A stretch of DNA of 64,000 bases, from assembly GCF_002999235.1 (NCBI RefSeq), contig NZ_CP027236.1:620001-684000 (forward strand). The letters are read 5' to 3'. Made by a program: the position numbers and the translations under genes. Shown piece after piece: positions 9,740-20,852 of the stretch. This DNA comes from Actinomyces sp. oral taxon 897. GTDB lineage: Bacteria > Actinomycetota > Actinomycetes > Actinomycetales > Actinomycetaceae. The notes beneath the pieces are model-generated. The model was not told the origin of the DNA. It did no database searches and saw only the letters and a program-made list of their open reading frames with translations. The stretch's first letter is position 1. Every line of letters begins with the position of its first letter.

Positions 9740-10106
9740 GGACGAGCCGACCGGGCGGCCGCGGTACCACCGAATAGTGGGCTGAGGAACGTCCGGGCTC
9801 CACAGGGCAGGGTGGTGGCTAACGGCCACCCGGGGTGACCCGCGGGACAGTGCCACAGAGAACAGACCGCCAGGCAGAGCCTGGTCAGGGTGAAACGGCG
9901 GGGTAAGAGCCCACCAGCGCGCCGGGTGACCGGCGCGGCTCGGTAAACCCCACCCGGAGCAAGACCGCACAGCAGGCGTCCGAGGGCTGCCCGCCCGAGC
10001 CTGCGGGTAGGTCGCGTGAGACCACCAGCAATGGTGGCCCAAGAGGAATGGTCGCCACCGCGGGCGAGCCTGCGGCAACAGAACCCGGCGTACAGGTCGG
10101 CTCACC
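9740..10106 (+). ncRNA. rnpB: RNase P RNA, bacterial class A
   Basis: Catalytic RNA of ribonuclease P, which removes 5' leaders from pre-tRNAs. Diagnostic blocks are the GAGGAACGTCCGGGCTCC-like segment near 9782-9801, AACGGCCACCCGGGG, the CR IV-type GTAAACCCCACC segment, and the 3' block ending GCGTACAGGTCGGCTCACC. CGAGCCGAC at 9743-9751 pairs with GTCGGCTC near 10096 to close helix P1. A -10 element TAGAGT at 9726-9731 sets the 5' end near 9738-9740. Ends are approximate to a few nucleotides. Confidence 0.95.
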
Positions 10107-10112
10107 GCAAGG

Positions 10113-12661: not shown

Positions 12662-13417
12662 ATGGCCACCCTCCACCTCGTCCGCCACGGTCGTACCGTC
12701 CTCAATGAGCAGCACCGCACGCAGGGCCGTGCGGACTCGCCCCTGACCCCCCAGGGGCGTCAGGGGGCCCTGGCGGTGGGGGCCTACCTGCGCGAGGTGC
12801 CCTTCGTGCACGCCTACACCAGTCCCCAGGGGCGGGTCCTGGAGACCACGGACCTGCTCCTGGCCGGGCGCGAGGACGTCCCCCGCACCGTGCTGTCGGG
12901 GCTGCGGGAGTACGACTACGGCGTCTACGAGGCGGGGCCGGACGAGGTCATGCTCGCCGCCCTGCCCGCGCGCACGCACCTGCCAGCGGTCCTGGCCGGA
13001 CGGGACCCGGGCGCCCCCGGCGGCATCAGCGCGCGCGACTACCTGGCCCGCACCGACGCCGCCCTGGCTCGGATCGTGGCCGACCTGCGCCGGTGGGGCG
13101 CGGGCGACGGGGCCGGGCCCCACGTCCTGGTCGTCTCCCACGGCATGACGCTCACGAGCCTGGTGGCCCGCTGGGTCGGCGCCCAGGTCCTGGGCAGGGA
13201 GCCCATGGCCAACTGCTCGGTGACCACCCTCGAGGTGGACCCGGCCGACCCGGCCCGCCCCAGGCTCCTGGCCTGGGCGGCCGACCCGGCCGGGCAGGGG
13301 GTCACCTTCCCGTCCGTGGACCTCGCCCACGCCTTCGACGGCGTCGTCCCGGTCCCGGTGGACCTCACCCACCCCGAGGGACTCACCCGCCCCCAGGGCG
13401 AGGCAGGTGCCTCCTGA
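12662..13417 (+). CDS. Histidine phosphatase superfamily (phosphoglycerate-mutase-like) protein
   Basis: 251 aa. The N-terminal [11 protein letters not shown] contains the phospho-accepting His of the RHG motif, [15 protein letters not shown] supplies the acidic residue region, and [11 protein letters not shown] gives the second catalytic His. These define the superfamily but not the substrate, which could be a small phosphoester or a cofactor precursor. TAGAAT at 12650-12655 ends 6 nt before the ATG, so it is a likely leaderless gene divergent from map. It ends 103 nt from convergent panB. Confidence 0.87.
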
Positions 13418-13520: not shown

Positions 13521-14357
13521 TCAGGAGGCGAACCAGTGCTCCGGGGCGGGGAAGGAGCCAGCGCGCACGGCCTGCCCGTAGTCGGCGGCGGCCTGGGCCA
13601 GGGCGGCCCCGACCTGGCCGAACTTCCTGGCGAAACGCGGTGACCAGTCGGTCATGCCGGCCATGTCGGTCCACACCAGGACCTGCCCGTCGCAGCGGGC
13701 CCCGGCGCCAATGCCAATGGTGGGCACGTCCAGGGCCTCGGTGACGCGGGCGGCCAGCGGCTCGGGGACCATCTCCAGGACCACGCCCATGACGCCAGCC
13801 CGCTCAATGGCCAGGGCGTCGGCCATTAGCTCGTCGCCGGCCTCGCCGCGGCCCTGCACGCGGAAGCCGCCCAGGGCGTTGACGCTCTGGGGGGTGAAGC
13901 CCAGGTGGCCCATGACGGGGATCCCGGCCTGGGTCAGGGCCTGGATGGTGGCGGTACGCGCCCGCCCGCCCTCGAGTTTGACGGCGTTGGCCCCCACCTT
14001 CACCAGGCGTACCGCGCTGGCCAGGGCCTGGGCGGGGCCCGCCTCGTAGGAGCCGAAGGGCAGGTCCGCCACCACCAGGGCGCGGGTGGTGGCCCGGGCC
14101 ACGGAGCGGGTGGCGACCACCAGCTCGTCGAGCTCCACCGGCAGGGTGGAGTCGTAGCCGAGCACGACGTTGCCCATGGAATCGCCGACGAGCAGCAGGT
14201 CCGTGCCCGCGGCGTCGAGGATCCGGGCGGTGGGGGCGTCGTAGGCGGTGAGCATGACGAGCTTGGTGCCTGCGGCCTTGGCCGCCGTGAGGTGGTGGAC
14301 GCGCACGGGCCTGCCGCCGCCGACGACGGGCCCGTAGGGGGACTCGGGAGTAGCCAT
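13521..14357 (-). CDS. panB: 3-methyl-2-oxobutanoate hydroxymethyltransferase
   Basis: First committed step of pantothenate (coenzyme A) synthesis: transfers the hydroxymethyl group of 5,10-methylene-THF to alpha-ketoisovalerate. 278 aa from ATG 14357. Family signatures are MLTAYDAPTARILDAAGTD, VGDSMGNVVLGYDSTLPV, VKLEGG, GHLGFTPQSVN, and IGAGARCDGQVLVWTDM near the C terminus. The start is set by TAGGCT (14369-14364) ending 6 nt upstream with no Shine-Dalgarno; a GTG two codons earlier overlaps that spacer and is less likely. It is divergent from the metallo-hydrolase gene, with only 31 nt between the start codons. Confidence 0.95.
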   Translation of the reverse strand: MATPESPYGPVVGGGRPVRVHHLTAAKAAGTKLVMLTAYDAPTARILDAAGTDLLLVGDSMGNVVLGYDSTLPVELDELVVATRSVARATTRALVVADLPFGSYEAGPAQALASAVRLVKVGANAVKLEGGRARTATIQALTQAGIPVMGHLGFTPQSVNALGGFRVQGRGEAGDELMADALAIERAGVMGVVLEMVPEPLAARVTEALDVPTIGIGAGARCDGQVLVWTDMAGMTDWSPRFARKFGQVGAALAQAAADYGQAVRAGSFPAPEHWFAS

Positions 14358-14363
14358 GGGCAC

Positions 14364-14388: not shown

Positions 14389-15210
14389 ATGATCCTCGAG
14401 CGCACGATTGCCCCCGTCTTCGCCGCCAACTGCTACGTGCTGGCCCCCGCTCCCGGTGCGGCCGCGCTGGTGGTGGACCCGGGCGCCGGGGCGGCCCGGG
14501 GCGCCCTGGCCCTGCTGCGCTCCCACGGCCTGAGCCTGGGGGCGGTTCTGCTGACCCACGGCCACGCCGACCACGTGTGGGACACCAGCGCCCTGGTCGA
14601 GGGCGCCCGCGACCAGGGGCTCGTCCAGGAGGGCTGTCAGGTGCCGGTCTACGTCCCCGGGCCCGACCTCTACCGGCTTGACGACCCCGACGCCACCACC
14701 GGCATCCGCCTGGCCGAGGGCCTGACCTTCGCCGACCTGGCGGGCGGCCCCTGGGTGCGTCCGGAGGGGGTGCGCCCCTTCCCCGCCCGGGGCCTGTCCG
14801 AGGCGGTCGAGCTCGTCCCCGGCCTCGGGCTGCGGGGCGTGCCGGCCCCCGGGCACTCGGAGGGCTCCAGCCTGTTCCTGCTGGGCGCGTCCCTGGCCGA
14901 CAACCCCCTGCTGTACGAGGCCGAGGTCCCCGCCCTGTGCGAGGCCGACCCCGCCCAGGCCGACGTGGAGCGCGACTACCTGCTGGCCCTGGACGGGGAC
15001 GTCATCTTCAAGGGGTCGGTGGGGCGCACCGACCTGCCCGGCGGGGACCAGGTGCAGATGCTGGCCACCCTGCGGCTGCTGGCCTCGGTCCTGGACCCGG
15101 CCACGGTCCTGCTGCCCGGGCACGGGGCGGCCACGACTATGGCGCACGAGCACCGCGCCAACCCCTACCTGGCCGAGGCCAAGGTCCGCGGCGGGGACCT
15201 GCGGGCCTAG
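14389..15210 (+). CDS. Metallo-beta-lactamase-fold hydrolase (glyoxalase II-like)
   Basis: 273 aa. The metal-binding THGHADHVWD gives the HxHxDH motif near residue 62. PGHSEGS, GSVGRTDLPGGD and the final PGHGAATTMAHEH supply further ligands and the glyoxalase II-like signature. About 35 residues inserted between SLFLLG and the GSVGRTD segment make it longer than typical 210-residue relatives. The substrate is not predictable; thioester hydrolysis or a role like the YcbL family is possible. TAGGGT lies 6 nt before the ATG, so the transcript is probably leaderless. Confidence 0.88.
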   Translation: MILERTIAPVFAANCYVLAPAPGAAALVVDPGAGAARGALALLRSHGLSLGAVLLTHGHADHVWDTSALVEGARDQGLVQEGCQVPVYVPGPDLYRLDDPDATTGIRLAEGLTFADLAGGPWVRPEGVRPFPARGLSEAVELVPGLGLRGVPAPGHSEGSSLFLLGASLADNPLLYEAEVPALCEADPAQADVERDYLLALDGDVIFKGSVGRTDLPGGDQVQMLATLRLLASVLDPATVLLPGHGAATTMAHEHRANPYLAEAKVRGGDLRA

Positions 15211-15394
15211 GGCGCCCCCGGGCCGGGAGCGGCACCACCGGGGCGGCGTCCCTGACGGACGTGTCACGGCCGCCCGTGAGGGGCGCGCACCGGGAGCGCA
15301 GCACCGGATGCCGCCCACCCCGGTACCACCGGGGCCGGTGAGGATCACACCACCTGCTCTCCCGGCCGACGGGCGGGGACGAGGGAGGGGACAG

Positions 15395-15400
15395 TAGACT
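15395..15400 (+). promoter_or_regulatory. -10 element ahead of the terC riboswitch
   Basis: TAGACT is placed so that transcription would begin near 15407, about 9 nt before the first pairing strand of the candidate riboswitch. No strong -35 is visible. The preceding 15211-15394 holds no gene I can support. Confidence 0.5.
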
Positions 15401-15415
15401 CTGACGATCAGCACT

Positions 15416-15565
15416 CGGAGGGGAGTACTCCCACCAACAGCGGCGTCGTCACCACGGTGGAGCGTGCCGGTACCGTGCCACGGTCCGGACTCCCCCGGCG
15501 TCGCGGGCCCGGCCCGGTATGGGCGGGGCGGGAGGAGACCTCCGGTACCCGACCCGTACCGGAGG
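15416..15565 (+). promoter_or_regulatory. Candidate yybP-ykoY manganese riboswitch with RBS-sequestering hairpin
   Basis: The 5' part reads CGGAGG then GGAGTA (15416-15427) and the 3' part reads AGA then CCTCCG (15536-15544). CGGAGG pairs with CCTCCG to form P1, with the conserved GGGGAGTA and AGACCT blocks placed as in known yybP-ykoY RNAs. Between them two GC-rich helical legs can form, including CTCCCACC with GGTGGAG. CCTCCGGTAC (15539-15548) is also a perfect 10-bp complement of GTACCGGAGG (15556-15565), which contains the terC Shine-Dalgarno. P1 and the sequestering hairpin share a strand and exclude each other, predicting Mn2+-activated translation. yybP-ykoY RNAs are established Mn2+ sensors that often precede TerC proteins and cation ATPases. 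Confidence 0.77.
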
Positions 15566-15572
15566 AGCACAC

Positions 15573-16613
15573 GTGCACGTCCATGCCCTGGGGTGGGCGG
15601 CCCTGGCCGCCGTCATCCTGACCATGATCACGATCGACGTCGTCGGCCACGTCAGGGTCCCCCACGTGCCCTCCATGCGGGAGGCCGCCTGGTGGTCGGT
15701 GGCCTACGTGGCCATGGCGGTGGTCTTCGGGGGCGTGGTGTGGGCGGTCTGGGGCCACCCCTACGGGAGCGCGTACTTCGCGGGCTACCTCACCGAGAAG
15801 GCCCTGAGCGTGGACAACCTCTTCGTGTTCGTCATTATGATGTCCACCTTCCGGGTACCCCGCAGGTACCAGCAGGAGGTGCTCCTGGCGGGCGTCGTTA
15901 TCGCCCTGGTGCTGCGCCTGCTCTTTATCCTGGCCGGGGCGGCCCTGGTGGAGAACTTCTCCTTCGTGTTCTACTTCTTCGGCGCCTGGCTGCTGTGGAC
16001 GGCCCTGTCCCAGGCGCGCGAGGGGGTGTCCGAGCCCGGGACCCACGAGGAGGGGGAGTACGAGCCCAGCCGGCTGGTGCGGGCCCTGGCCCGGGTGGTG
16101 CCCATGACCGACGGCTACGTGGGCGGCAAGGTCCTGCACCGTCACGCCGGGCGCACCCTGGTGACCCCCATGCTGCTGGTCATTATCGCCATCGGCACCA
16201 CCGACGTCATGTTCGCCATGGACTCCATCCCCGCGATCTACTCCTGGACCACCGAGCCCTACCTGGTCTTCGCCGCCAACGCCTTCTCCCTGCTGGGCCT
16301 GCGCCAGCTCTACTTCCTCATTGACGGCCTGCTGGACCGCCTGGTCTACCTCCACTACGGGCTGGCCGTGATCCTGGGGTTCATCGGCCTGAAGCTGGTC
16401 AACCACGCCCTGCACACCAACGAGGTCCCCTTCGTCAACGGCGGCCGGCCCTGGCACGTGGTCCCCGAGCCGGGCATCGGGGCCTCGTTGTGCCTTATCG
16501 TTGTCACCATGCTGGTCACGGTGCTCGCCTCCCTGACGGTGGGTCGACGCCGGGCCCGCCGCGACGCCGACCAGGCGCCCCAGCCCGGTCCCGTCACCTC
16601 CACCCCGGCCTAG
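15573..16613 (+). CDS. TerC-family integral membrane protein, probable manganese exporter
   Basis: 346 aa from GTG 15573, with GGAGGAG 7 nt upstream. A longer frame from 15519 would run through the riboswitch hairpin and is rejected. Nine or so hydrophobic helices carry the family acidic signatures TEKALSVDNLFVFVIMM near residue 80 and TTDVMFAMDSIPAI near 215, with an acidic cytoplasmic loop (GTHEEGEYEPS) between. TerC/Alx/YkoY proteins are linked to Mn2+ efflux and metallation of secreted enzymes. The upstream riboswitch and the P-type ATPase 37 nt downstream support a metal-export operon. Confidence 0.9.
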   Translation: MHVHALGWAALAAVILTMITIDVVGHVRVPHVPSMREAAWWSVAYVAMAVVFGGVVWAVWGHPYGSAYFAGYLTEKALSVDNLFVFVIMMSTFRVPRRYQQEVLLAGVVIALVLRLLFILAGAALVENFSFVFYFFGAWLLWTALSQAREGVSEPGTHEEGEYEPSRLVRALARVVPMTDGYVGGKVLHRHAGRTLVTPMLLVIIAIGTTDVMFAMDSIPAIYSWTTEPYLVFAANAFSLLGLRQLYFLIDGLLDRLVYLHYGLAVILGFIGLKLVNHALHTNEVPFVNGGRPWHVVPEPGIGASLCLIVVTMLVTVLASLTVGRRRARRDADQAPQPGPVTSTPA

Positions 16614-16650: not shown

Positions 16651-19206
16651 ATGAGCCCTGACCCGACACCCTCGCCCACCCAGGCGGACGGGGGACCGGA
16701 CCCCCACCCGGGGCAGGACGACCCCGCGCCCCGCCGCGGCCTGAGCGCCGCCCAGGTGGCCGACGCCGTCCGGGCCGGGCGGACCAACGCCTACCAGGAG
16801 CCCACCTCGCGCTCCGCGCGCGAGATCCTGCGCGCCAACGTCTTCACCGTCTTCAACGCCATCCTCGGCGCCGCCCTGGTGGTCATCCTAGCCGTGGGCA
16901 GCTGGCGTGACGCCCTGTTCGGCTTCGTGCTGCTGATCAACACGGCCACCGGCACGGTGGCCGAGATCCGGGCCAAGCGGGCCCTGGACAGCCTGTCGGT
17001 CCTGGCCGCCCCGCTCACCCAGGTCATCCGTGACGGGACGGAGTCCTCAGTGGGCGTGGCCGAGGTCGTCCTGGGCGACCTCATCCGGGTCTCCAGCGGC
17101 GACCAGGTACCCGCCGACGGCGTGGTGGTCGAGCAGCAGGGCGTGGAGATCGACGAGTCCATCCTCACCGGGGAGTCGGCCACCGTCCGCAAGGAGCCGG
17201 GCGACCGGGTCATGTCGGGCACCACGGTGACCGCCGGCACCGCCCTGGTCACCGTGGACGCGGTGGGCGCCGACGCCTACGCCCACCGCCTGGCGGCCGA
17301 GGCCCGCCGCTACAGCGTGGTCACCTCCGAGCTCCAGGCGGGCACCAACCGGGTCCTGACCTGGATCAGCTGGGTGATCGTTCCCATGACCCTGCTGCTG
17401 CTGTGGTCCCAGATGCGCGTGGCCGGGGGCTGGTCGGCCGCCTGGGCGAACGGCGGCTGGCGGCACGCCGTCGTCCTGGCCGTGGCCGGGGTGGTCGGCA
17501 TGGTCCCCCAGGGCCTGGTGCTCCTGACCAGCGTCAACTTCGCCGCAGCCAGCCTGTCCCTGGCCCGCCAGCACGTCCTGGTCCAGGAGCTGCCCGCCGT
17601 GGAGGTCCTGGCCCGGGTGGACACCCTGTGCCTGGACAAGACCGGCACCCTGACCTCCGGGGGGGTCGAGCTCCAGCAGATCCTGGGCCTGGACGACCAC
17701 GGCCACCTCGTCGGTCCCGCGGGCCCGCAGGACCCCTCGGCGGACGGGCAGGACGGCTCCCACGGGCGCGCCTTGGCGGCCCTGGCCGCCATGGTGGGAG
17801 GCGAGGAGGCCAACGCGACCGCCCGGGCCGTGGCCGCCGGGCTGAGCGGGGTCACCCCCGCCCAGGGGGCCGGGCAGGTCCCCTTCTCCAGCGCCCGCAA
17901 GTGGTCCGCCCTGGCCGTGGAGGAGCCCTCGGGGCGGGCCCACTACGTCCTGGGGGCCCCCGAGATCGTCCTGGCCCCGGCCCTGGCCGCCGGTGACGAC
18001 GCCGCCCGGGCGACCCTGGAGAAGGTCTCCGACCTGGCCGGTGCCGGCCAGCGGGTCCTGTGCCTGGCCCGCTCCACCGGCCTGTGGTACCTGCCCAGGG
18101 AGGGCGAGCCCAGCCTGCCCGAGGGCCTGCACGCCGTCGTCCTGGCCGTCCTGGCCGAGGAGGTCCGCCCTGACGCCGCCCGGACCCTGGGCTACTTCGC
18201 CGAGCAGGGCGTGACCGTCAAGATCATTAGCGGGGACAACCCCACCACGGTGGCGGCGATCGCCCGCGGCGTGGGCGTGCGGGCCCCCGACGGGGGGCAG
18301 GCCGAGGGCGTGGACGCCCGGGTGCTGCCCGACGCCCAGGAGGAGGAGGGGCGGGCCCTGGCCGACGTCCTGGAGACCGGTGCCGTGTTCGGCCGGGTCA
18401 CCCCCGAGCAGAAGCGCGACTTCGTGCGCGCCCTGCGCTCGCGCGGGCACGTGGTGGCCATGACCGGCGACGGCGTCAACGACGCCCTGGCCCTCAAGGA
18501 CGCCGACCTGGGGATCGCCATGGGCAACGCCGCCCCCGCCACCAAGGCCGTGGCCCGCCTGGTGCTCCTGGACGGGCGCTTCGCCTCCCTGCCCGGGGTG
18601 GTGGCCGAGGGGCGGCGGGTCATTGCCAATATGGAGCGCGTGGCCTCCCTGTTCCTGGCCAAGACCACCTACGCGGCCCTCATTGCCGTGGTGGTGGCCC
18701 TGGCCGGGATCTCCTACCCCTACCTGCCCCGCCAGCTGACCATTGTCTCCTCCCTGACCATCGGTATCCCTGCCACGGTCATCGCCCTGGCGCCCACCCA
18801 CCAGCGCTACCGGCCGGGCTTCCTGGGGCGCGTGCTGCGCCTGGCCGTCCCGGCCGGCCTGGTGATCGGGGCCGGGGTCCTGGTCACCCGCACCTGGCTG
18901 TCCCTGGCCGGCGCCGCCTCGGGCCAGGTGACCACCGGGGCCACCCTGGTCCTGGTGCTCGGCGGGCTGTGGCTGCTGTCCTGCACGGCCCGGCCCTGGG
19001 TGTGGTGGCGGGTGGTCCTGGTGGTGCTCATGGCCGCCGCCGCCCTGATGACGGTGTTCCTGGAGGGGCTGCGCAGCTTCTTCGACCTGGCCTGGCCCGC
19101 CCCGCTGACCTGGGTGGTCCTGGGGACGGTCGGGGCGGGTGTGTGCCTGGGCGTGGAGCTGGTGGCCTGGTGGGCCTCCCGGGCCGCCCGCCGTACCCGC
19201 CCCTAG
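16651..19206 (+). CDS. Cation-translocating P-type ATPase (CtpE-like)
   Basis: 851 aa with AGGAGG ahead of the ATG. The P-type core is complete: actuator TGES near residue 173 (LTGESATV), phosphorylation site CLDKTGTLT near 329, and hinge GDGVNDALALKDADLGIAMG near 606. The ion-site helix carries MVPQGLVLLTSVN where many Ca2+/Mn2+ pumps have PEGL. No heavy-metal CPx motif or N-terminal metal-binding domain is present. It most resembles actinobacterial CtpE pumps, which have been tied to Ca2+. Its position behind the Mn2+ riboswitch and terC suggests Mn2+ may be the cargo here. That is inferred from position. Confidence 0.88.
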   Translation: MSPDPTPSPTQADGGPDPHPGQDDPAPRRGLSAAQVADAVRAGRTNAYQEPTSRSAREILRANVFTVFNAILGAALVVILAVGSWRDALFGFVLLINTATGTVAEIRAKRALDSLSVLAAPLTQVIRDGTESSVGVAEVVLGDLIRVSSGDQVPADGVVVEQQGVEIDESILTGESATVRKEPGDRVMSGTTVTAGTALVTVDAVGADAYAHRLAAEARRYSVVTSELQAGTNRVLTWISWVIVPMTLLLLWSQMRVAGGWSAAWANGGWRHAVVLAVAGVVGMVPQGLVLLTSVNFAAASLSLARQHVLVQELPAVEVLARVDTLCLDKTGTLTSGGVELQQILGLDDHGHLVGPAGPQDPSADGQDGSHGRALAALAAMVGGEEANATARAVAAGLSGVTPAQGAGQVPFSSARKWSALAVEEPSGRAHYVLGAPEIVLAPALAAGDDAARATLEKVSDLAGAGQRVLCLARSTGLWYLPREGEPSLPEGLHAVVLAVLAEEVRPDAARTLGYFAEQGVTVKIISGDNPTTVAAIARGVGVRAPDGGQAEGVDARVLPDAQEEEGRALADVLETGAVFGRVTPEQKRDFVRALRSRGHVVAMTGDGVNDALALKDADLGIAMGNAAPATKAVARLVLLDGRFASLPGVVAEGRRVIANMERVASLFLAKTTYAALIAVVVALAGISYPYLPRQLTIVSSLTIGIPATVIALAPTHQRYRPGFLGRVLRLAVPAGLVIGAGVLVTRTWLSLAGAASGQVTTGATLVLVLGGLWLLSCTARPWVWWRVVLVVLMAAAALMTVFLEGLRSFFDLAWPAPLTWVVLGTVGAGVCLGVELVAWWASRAARRTRP

Positions 19207-19451
19207 CCGCGGCGGCGTCGCACCGCGCCCGGTGCCCCTGAGGTGCCTTAAGGCGCCCCCAGGTGCACCCGCCGGGCGGTGCCGCGGGGTGGTGCCGCCG
19301 GGTGGTGGCCGGTGCCCCGACCCGGTGCCGGTCGGCGTCGGACACCGGGCCGCCTGCCCACGGGGCGGTCCACGAGGTGGTCTGGCCAGGTCGCAGGGGG
19401 CCGCGGCCTGTACGCTGGGTGGGCCGTGCCCCCCGACGTCAGGAGAAGTCC

Positions 19452-20852
19452 GTGGTCCTTCACTGGTGGTCCGTCCTGCCCTTCGCGGCCATGCTGGCCT
19501 CGATCGCGGTCCTGCCCCTGGTCCCCGCCACCGCCCACTGGTGGGAGAGGCGCTCCAGCCAGATGACGGTGTCCCTGCTCCTGGGCGTGCCCGTGGCCGC
19601 CTGGGTGTGGGCGGCCCTGGGCTGGCAGGAGGTGCTCGCCTCGGTGGTGGAGTACACGCAGTTCATCTGCCTGCTGCTGGCCCTGTTCGTGGTATCCGGG
19701 GGCATCTACCTCAAGGGCGACATTGAGGCCACGCCCCGCAGCAACACGGTCTTCCTGGCCGTGGGGGCCCTGCTGGCGTCCTTCGTGGGCACCACCGGGG
19801 CGGCCATGCTGCTCGTCCGCCCGCTGCTGGCCACCAACCGCGAGCGCCGCTACCGGGTCCACACCGTCATCTTCACCATCCTGGTGGTGGCCAACTGCGG
19901 CGGCCTGCTCACCCCGCTGGGCGACCCGCCGCTGTTCCTGGGGTTCCTGCGGGGCGTGCCCTTCACCTGGACCCTGGGCCTGGCCCCGGAGTGGCTCTTC
20001 GTCAACACCATGCTGCTGGTGGCCTACTACTCGCTGGACTGCTTCTACCACTCCAAGGAGCCTGCCAGCGCCGTCAGGCAGGACCGGGCCCAGATCGAGC
20101 CCCTGGGCCTGCGGGGCGCGGGCAACTTCGTGTGGTTCGCGGTCATCGTCCTGGCCGTGGCCCTGGCGCCCTCCGTGGACGTGGAGGCCATTGAGGCCGG
20201 CCGTGCCACCCTGGTCAGCTGGCTGCCGGTGCGTGAGGTCATCATGCTCACCGCCGCCGGGCTCTCCTACCGCCTGGGGGACCGGCGGGCCCGGTTTGAG
20301 GACAACCAGTTCCAGTGGGGGCCGATCGCCGAGGTCGCCACCCTGTTCGTGGGGATCTTCCTGACCATGATCCCGGCCCTGGCCTACCTGGACGAGGTGG
20401 CCCCCCACCTGCCCATGAACGAGGTGACCTTCTTCGTCTTCACCGGGGGGCTGTCCTCCGTGCTGGACAACGCCCCCACCTACGCGACCTTCTTCGAGGT
20501 GGCCCGTCACGTGGCCGGCCCCGGGGGGGCCGTGGTGGCGGGGGTCCCCGAGGTCTTCCTGGTGCCTATCTCCCTGGGGGCGGTGCTGTGCGGCGCCATC
20601 ACCTACATCGGTAACGGCCCCAACTTCATGGTCAAGTCCGTGGCGGAGGCCGACGGGGTGGTCATGCCCGGCTTCGGCGCCTACGTGGGGCAGACCTTCC
20701 TGCACCTGGTCCCGGTCCTGGCCGCCATGGTCCTGATCTTCGTCGCCGACGGCCTGGTCACCACGGCTGTCGGCGTGGGCCTGGCGGCGGCGCTGCTGGC
20801 CAAGGACGCCGTCCTGGTCCTGCGCAGCAGGCGCCTGGCCCTGGCGGACTGA
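19452..20852 (+). CDS. NhaD/CitM-like sodium:proton antiporter or anion transporter
   Basis: 466 aa from GTG 19452, chosen because AGGAGA precedes it; a longer upstream frame is GC-rich noise. About twelve hydrophobic helices are present. The two ion-transporter-superfamily hairpins are visible: GTTGAAMLLVRPLL with VVANCGGLLTPLGDPPLFLGF, and GGLSSVLDNAPTYATF with AITYIGNGPNFMVKSV. This matches the UIT3/NhaD-like group found in diverse bacteria. The substrate (Na+/H+ or an organic anion) cannot be set by sequence. TACGCT at 19411-19416 may be its -10. It lies 245 nt after the ATPase and probably has its own promoter. Confidence 0.82.
   Translation: MVLHWWSVLPFAAMLASIAVLPLVPATAHWWERRSSQMTVSLLLGVPVAAWVWAALGWQEVLASVVEYTQFICLLLALFVVSGGIYLKGDIEATPRSNTVFLAVGALLASFVGTTGAAMLLVRPLLATNRERRYRVHTVIFTILVVANCGGLLTPLGDPPLFLGFLRGVPFTWTLGLAPEWLFVNTMLLVAYYSLDCFYHSKEPASAVRQDRAQIEPLGLRGAGNFVWFAVIVLAVALAPSVDVEAIEAGRATLVSWLPVREVIMLTAAGLSYRLGDRRARFEDNQFQWGPIAEVATLFVGIFLTMIPALAYLDEVAPHLPMNEVTFFVFTGGLSSVLDNAPTYATFFEVARHVAGPGGAVVAGVPEVFLVPISLGAVLCGAITYIGNGPNFMVKSVAEADGVVMPGFGAYVGQTFLHLVPVLAAMVLIFVADGLVTTAVGVGLAAALLAKDAVLVLRSRRLALAD

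Follow-up and report, generated by a model that had tools for sequence, protein, structure and literature searches.

What governs the expression of terC in Actinomyces sp. oral taxon 897, and does the leader that precedes the gene sense a metal? We addressed this question in a 64,000-nucleotide stretch of the genome (the window), to which all coordinates without a locus label refer; features are on the forward strand unless otherwise stated. The original prediction placed a yybP-ykoY-type aptamer before a TerC/Alx gene, set its P1 helix against a hairpin that masks the Shine-Dalgarno (SD) sequence, and proposed that translation is switched on; this much is retained here, but the accompanying claim of unusual compactness is not. 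We consider it highly likely that the terC leader is a Mn2+ riboswitch of the yybP-ykoY class that acts on translation, and the best reading of its sequence is that Mn2+ would turn terC translation on. The anatomy and conservation of the leader, the co-change of its shared strand with the SD, and its association with particular genes were computed and are described below.

Organization of the terC locus

The terC gene (15573-16613) begins with a GTG codon at 15573-15575 and encodes a 346-residue protein of the TerC/Alx family, which matches TIGR03718 (R_switched_Alx) at 349.7 bits, against a cut-off of 246.4, and also matches PF03741. A P-type cation ATPase gene (16651-19206; PF00122) begins 37 nt after terC and is presumed to be the second gene of an operon; the nearest solved relative of its product is the Listeria Ca2+-ATPase lmo0841. 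Among the 30 genus loci with long flanks, an ATPase gene follows terC at 29, at 7 of them with a second TerC gene in between; tandem second TerC genes are present at 8 of the 30 loci and precede the ATPase gene at 7, whereas the flank of the other locus (L025) showed no ATPase gene.

The sequence TAGACT at 15395-15400, 21 nt upstream of P1, is a putative -10 element. The motif TA[AG]ACT lies within the 45 nt that precede P1 in 46 of the 49 genus leaders (mean of 0.5 and maximum of 3 in shuffled sequences); a general sigma-70 scan found no promoter at the locus, and the assignment therefore rests on conservation. Neighboring genes encode a histidine phosphatase family protein (12662-13417), a ketopantoate hydroxymethyltransferase (13521-14363, reverse strand), and a CitMHS_2-type transporter (19263-20852).

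Anatomy of the leader and its putative metal site

TerC is present in all 49 genomes of the genus, including that of the window, and a leader of the same form is present in all 49, although in G028 it lies upstream of the matched TerC, a more distant one, by approximately 350 nt, and at L060 P1 is short of one G. The 49 leaders give 48 distinct rows in the genus alignment. From 25 of the 49 aptamers, including the window's own row, we built a model, R1, leaving out L028 and L060 (with a changed and a shortened P1, respectively), rows that were near identical (similarity threshold of 0.93), and four rows in which the P3-P4 joint is 1 nt shorter, because the aligner had shifted these four. Searched with R1, the window's own genome yields the window copy at 97.6 bits, and the next-best match reaches 21 bits.

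Every element that the original prediction named is in place, namely, GGGGAGUA, AGACCU, a 6-bp P1, and a second, perfect 10-bp pairing. The predicted aptamer (15416-15544) is of a form without P2. Its P1 5' strand, CGGAGG (15416-15421), overlaps the GGGGAGTA block (15420-15427) and leads into the 5' side of L1, GGAGUA (15422-15427), which is invariant in the genus alignment; the 3' side of L1, GAGA (15535-15538), is part of the GAGACC block, within which AGACCT occupies 15536-15541. The L1 GGGGAGUA with its conserved adenosine and the 3' AGACC block are present in both the window and the genus. P1.2 pairs CUCCC (15428-15432) with GGGAG (15530-15534). Across the distinct rows, the proportion of paired cells is 98.6% for P1, 98.3% for P1.2, 97.9% for P3, and 98.3% for the three helices together.

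In the place of P2 is a joining strand, ACCAACA (15433-15439), that is too short to form a hairpin; every one of the 49 genus leaders has 6 to 8 nt separating P1.2 from P3, and the four-way junction of four helices, P1 to P4, is absent, a feature that does not define the class if alx also lacks P2. P3 pairs GCGGCGUCG (15440-15448) with CGGCGUCGC (15496-15504), and its pairs change in the genus from A-U to G-C in 12 of the 48 distinct rows and from C-G to U-A in 2. The P4 arm (15505-15529) is closed by GCCC (15507-15510) with GGGC (15526-15529); over 25 rows, three closing pairs are invariant, and the fourth is A-U, C-G, U-A, or G-C in 18 and unpaired in 7, with both letters of this outer pair changed in 5. 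The L3 bulge, UCACCAC (15449-15455), conforms to UCA(U/C)C(A/G)C in each of the 49 leaders from the genus, with UCA invariant.

Our tentative placement of these residues on the metal site of the Lactococcus lactis riboswitch uses the L. lactis sequence together with published residue numbers. Those numbers assign the site to G9, U39, C40, A41, U44, and C45 (PMC9190785), and A48 and the L1 adenosine A10 of Xanthomonas oryzae are reported to play the same roles as their L. lactis counterparts (PMC6754395). The presumed window counterparts are G15423, U15449, C15450, A15451, and C15455; G15423 would correspond to G9, A15424 to the L1 adenosine, and A15451 to the Mn2+-binding adenosine (A41 in L. 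lactis and A48 in X. oryzae). The U44 position is A in the window, and the U44 contact is reported to be made through phosphate.

A strand shared with the Shine-Dalgarno helix

The P1 3' strand, CCTCCG (CCUCCG in RNA; 15539-15544), doubles as an anti-SD strand. It begins CCTCCGGTAC (15539-15548), which forms a perfect 10-bp helix with GTACCGGAGG (15556-15565), the segment holding the SD GGAGG (15561-15565), 7 nt before the GTG codon; the resulting hairpin (15539-15565) has a 7-nt loop. Both helices use 15539-15544 and are thus mutually exclusive, as had been foreseen. The masking helix is paired in 99.8% of cells of the genus alignment, and pairing falls to between 27 and 42% when the partner is slid by 1 to 3 columns. 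A match of CCUCC to any GGAGG, amounting to 5 bp, is nearly automatic, and the meaningful part of this pairing is therefore its extension beyond those letters together with co-change. Within the genus, one shared column of the hairpin has a U-G pair in 6 rows and a U-A pair in 2; the latter are L027 and L036, in which the SD strand has changed from GGAGG to GAAGG and the shared strand from CCTCC to CCTTC, a compensatory C-G to U-A change that keeps the masking hairpin and gives P1 a G-U pair, so that both helices are kept.

Co-change was assessed over 160 leaders, 66 of which differ from CCTCCG in the P1 3' strand. Among these variants, 25 carry a perfect 6-nt downstream complement, whereas 1,000 permutations, which ignore the relatedness of the leaders, gave 3.05 on average and at most 9; with repeats removed (147 leaders remaining), the corresponding values were 23 of 62, with a permuted mean of 3.1 and a maximum of 8. 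Examples are CCTTGA with TCAAGG, CCTCAG with CTGAGG, and CCTCCA with TGGAGG. The other 41 variants have no perfect complement, and some form only 3 or 4 pairs. The P1 5' strand shows little co-change, forming 5.50 of 6 pairs with its own strand versus 5.38 with a constant TGGAGG.

Strand sharing is not peculiar to this locus. In leaders found by R1 across the class, the P1 3' strand pairs with a downstream segment over 6 bp or more in 88 of 104 TerC-linked hits and over 7 bp or more in 76, with masking of less than 6 bp in the remaining 16; in 58 of the 104, the helix length was reached by no more than 5% of 200 shuffles of the hit's own leader. We rejected the idea that the window holds an unusually compact switch, given how often the design recurs in the class as sampled, and the window's element is itself ordinary for its class.

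We propose that, without Mn2+, 15539-15544 would extend into the 10-bp hairpin with the SD, leaving terC untranslated. Mn2+ would dock L1 onto L3, through the L3 adenosine A15451, whereupon P1 would form and take the shared strand; the SD would be freed and terC, and probably also the ATPase gene behind it, turned on. The same competition might instead operate mainly on transcription, with P1 preventing Rho-dependent or other early termination in a leader that is not translated and SD masking being secondary, and E. coli mntP, a translational member of the class, is reported to be under Rho control as well (PMC11647493). We regard this as improbable, since there is no intrinsic terminator between 15200 and 15700 and the alternative helix has its end precisely at the SD and varies in step with the shared strand.

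Folding energetics and the probable timing of the choice

In ligand-free folding, the masking hairpin had a probability above 0.5 in 46 of the 49 leaders from the genus and, among the 88 class leaders in which masking spans 6 bp or more, in 85; P1 exceeded that probability in none of the 49 and none of the 88. Folding in the genus thus agrees with the proposed exclusion, but the window leader is one of the three exceptions. Its minimum-energy fold (-86.8 kcal/mol) is a third structure, offered by the GC-rich P3 arm, that contains neither helix and in which the SD is still largely buried; when forced, the masked and aptamer states reach -81.2 and -76.6 kcal/mol, respectively, and the folding energy of the leader is not unusual (z score of -1.09). 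Energy folding was accordingly rejected as a proof of the switch. A conserved leader that does not switch, for example, a stability hairpin with a constitutive weakening effect on terC translation, would need only the 10-bp hairpin and would suit a best fold that lacks the aptamer, but it leaves unexplained the invariant letters of L1 and L3, the pair changes in P3 and P4, and the match of R1 to alx, and we give it almost no credence.

For a translational Mn2+ switch, the duplex energies bear on timing. The masking hairpin is worth -18.4 kcal/mol as a duplex (-17.6 kcal/mol for the hairpin alone) versus -9.4 kcal/mol for P1, which cannot prevail at equilibrium without energy from the ligand; the window leader therefore probably commits to one helix while transcription is under way and the SD has yet to emerge. 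In L. lactis, the P1.1 helix is reported to nucleate early and to suppress the later hairpin (PMC11087558).

Distribution in the class and associated genes

When R1 was run over a sample of 246 genomes of the class, 107 genomes, including the window's own, had a match at E≤0.01. Besides the window's, there were 116 hits, of which 104 precede TerC genes, 2 precede genes of GDT1, a divalent-cation transporter family, 1 precedes a P-type ATPase frame, 4 precede genes of a family of approximately 280 residues, and 5 have other or unclear neighbors; the counts for TerC and GDT1 fit the association of yybP-ykoY RNAs with genes of Mn2+ homeostasis. At named TerC loci (the best 80 among the matches listed), a hit lies just upstream in 56 of the 80, and all 59 R1 hits at these loci are on the strand of the gene; beyond the 56, two precede a second TerC gene, and one (L244 3868), which lacks the L1 motif, appears to be spurious. 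Over the class and named sets together, the looser motif GGGAGUA is present in 161 of 163 hits, being absent from the L205 and L244 3868 hits, and L1 and L3 are 18 to 28 nt apart in 160 of 163, a distance that leaves no room for P2; of the others, L254 has a spacing of 50 nt that contains a hairpin-like insert, and the two hits without the L1 motif have no measurable distance.

R1 also reaches beyond the actinobacteria. In 14 kb of E. coli DNA, searched on both strands, its best match is the alx leader (22.7 bits; E = 1e-4), with the next at 8.7 bits, and this match carries the L3 sequence UCAUUAC; the alignment to E. coli alx was computed. The leader of E. coli mntP scored 6.8 bits, no better than noise. 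Three lines of sequence evidence, namely, a genus-wide leader with kept L1 and L3 letters, the finding of alx by R1, and the association with TerC and GDT1, point to what is very probably a yybP-ykoY Mn2+ aptamer. The same architecture might serve another ligand or signal, either a different divalent metal or pH; the alx element was first described as pH responsive (PMC3874183), and the ATPase encoded downstream is similar to Ca2+-ATPases. Against this, the letters of the Mn2+ site in L3 are conserved and the gene partners include TerC and GDT1, and we judge a different ligand to be very unlikely.

Several individual loci merit a record. In one genus (L113, L117, L141, and L155, in G302, G172, G233, and G214), the aptamer stands before an undescribed family of approximately 280 residues; the L113 protein has no Pfam match, the other three are 50 to 56% identical to it, and the family is a possible new member of the Mn2+ regulon. 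At L135/L268 (G270), the aptamer precedes an open frame of at least 1,235 codons with a match to P-type ATPases that shares 31% identity with the window's ATPase; the first 357 residues encoded by this frame have no Pfam match. At L163 (G259), a hit precedes a gene with a GreA/GreB C-terminal domain. Tandem TerC pairs in which each gene has its own aptamer directly upstream were seen in Rothia koreensis (L210; 1361-1473 and 2604-2724) and Brevibacterium daeguense (L225; 1294-1406 and 2661-2761). The L254 hit of Cryobacterium breve (1243-1374), weak at 18.7 bits, is the sole one with an insert, CCACTG...CAGTGG, at the usual place of P2. At L205, labeled as the nonactinobacterium Salinicola peritrichatus, a TerC protein 53% identical to that of the window accompanies a 35.6-bit R1 hit that lacks GGGAGUA, reflecting either transfer or contamination.

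The Rfam model and its controls

The check proposed with the original prediction, a match to the yybP-ykoY covariance model, came back negative: RF00080 (Rfam 15) has no match in the window at its gathering score, nor any at E≤10 in 15200-15700. The window's only Rfam match over its cut-off is a bacterial class A RNase P RNA (9743-10108; 278.9 bits). RF00080 likewise found nothing in 15 genus loci (E≤0.5), in 20 class loci with an R1 hit (E≤0.01), or in 17 named loci (E≤0.05), 9 of which carry an R1 hit. In the window's own genome, it gave one 10.4-bit match, located elsewhere than the terC leader, and over 59 genomes, including this one, it gave 10 weak matches, none above the cut-off; 6 of these are in the genus, away from the TerC places, and the other 4 are in other genera.

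The negative result says little about the leader because RF00080 also falls short on reported switches. Both alx and mntP of E. coli are reported to sense Mn2+ (PMC9603457); the mntP leader (L061 2462-2558) scores 41.6 bits, under the cut-off of 45, and the alx leader (L062 4376-4499) is unmatched at E≤0.5. We therefore treat a match to RF00080 as diagnostic of the class but not as defining it, since alx fails as well, and we set the model aside as a judge of membership. These controls expose a blind spot in the Rfam 15 model, which may need rebuilding.

Comparison with known systems

Two parts of this account are already known: a translational yybP-ykoY switch in which Mn2+ acts positively by uncovering a ribosome-binding site, in mntP (PMC11647493), and the assignment of a terC leader of Corynebacterium glutamicum to the yybP-ykoY class (PMC3890552). 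The present study adds the P2-less form in the genus and the class, common to alx by sequence, and the repeated sharing of a strand with the SD, and it brings the proposed control of TerC by manganese in many actinobacteria under a single RNA design that is open to testing. In the largely open-access literature surveyed, we recognized no description of the P2-less form or of actinobacterial Mn2+ switches beyond the C. glutamicum assignment. A wider proposal, which we offer tentatively and think less probable than not, is that actinobacteria harbor a widespread subgroup of P2-less, three-way-junction Mn2+ riboswitches, unseen by the current Rfam model, in which a single strand, the P1 3' strand that in its commonest form includes CCUCC, a copy of the 16S anti-SD, would serve as the platform of a kinetic translational switch acting on TerC, GDT1, a long P-type ATPase, and the undescribed family of approximately 280 residues.

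One of the closest relatives is E. coli alx, a yybP-ykoY member reported to be Mn2+ sensing and pH responsive. Like the window leader, it has GGGGAGUA, GAGACCU, and a TerC-family gene, it has the L3 sequence UCAUUAC and 20 nt between L1 and L3, with no room for P2, and it is found by R1; unlike in the window, the downstream hairpin within which its P1 3' strand can pair, AGACCUUGCC/GGCGAGGUCU, leaves out the SD. E. coli mntP resembles the proposed switch in its logic, translation being turned on when Mn2+ frees a hidden ribosome-binding site (PMC11647493), but it has a P2 hairpin in the Rfam alignment and is barely scored by R1, as noted above. The L. lactis yybP-ykoY riboswitch, for which a crystal structure exists, shares the L1/L3 metal site (PMC9190785) and the competition of a switch helix, P1.1, with a downstream hairpin (PMC11087558, PMC9190785); it differs in being a transcriptional on switch, in which the competing hairpin is a terminator, and in having four helices, P1 to P4, around a four-way junction (PMC9190785, PMC6754395). 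The leader of C. glutamicum cg2157 (terC), likened here by description only, is an actinobacterial terC 5' untranslated region of the yybP-ykoY class, with an earlier Rfam match of 49.13 bits and an observed transcript (PMC3890552).
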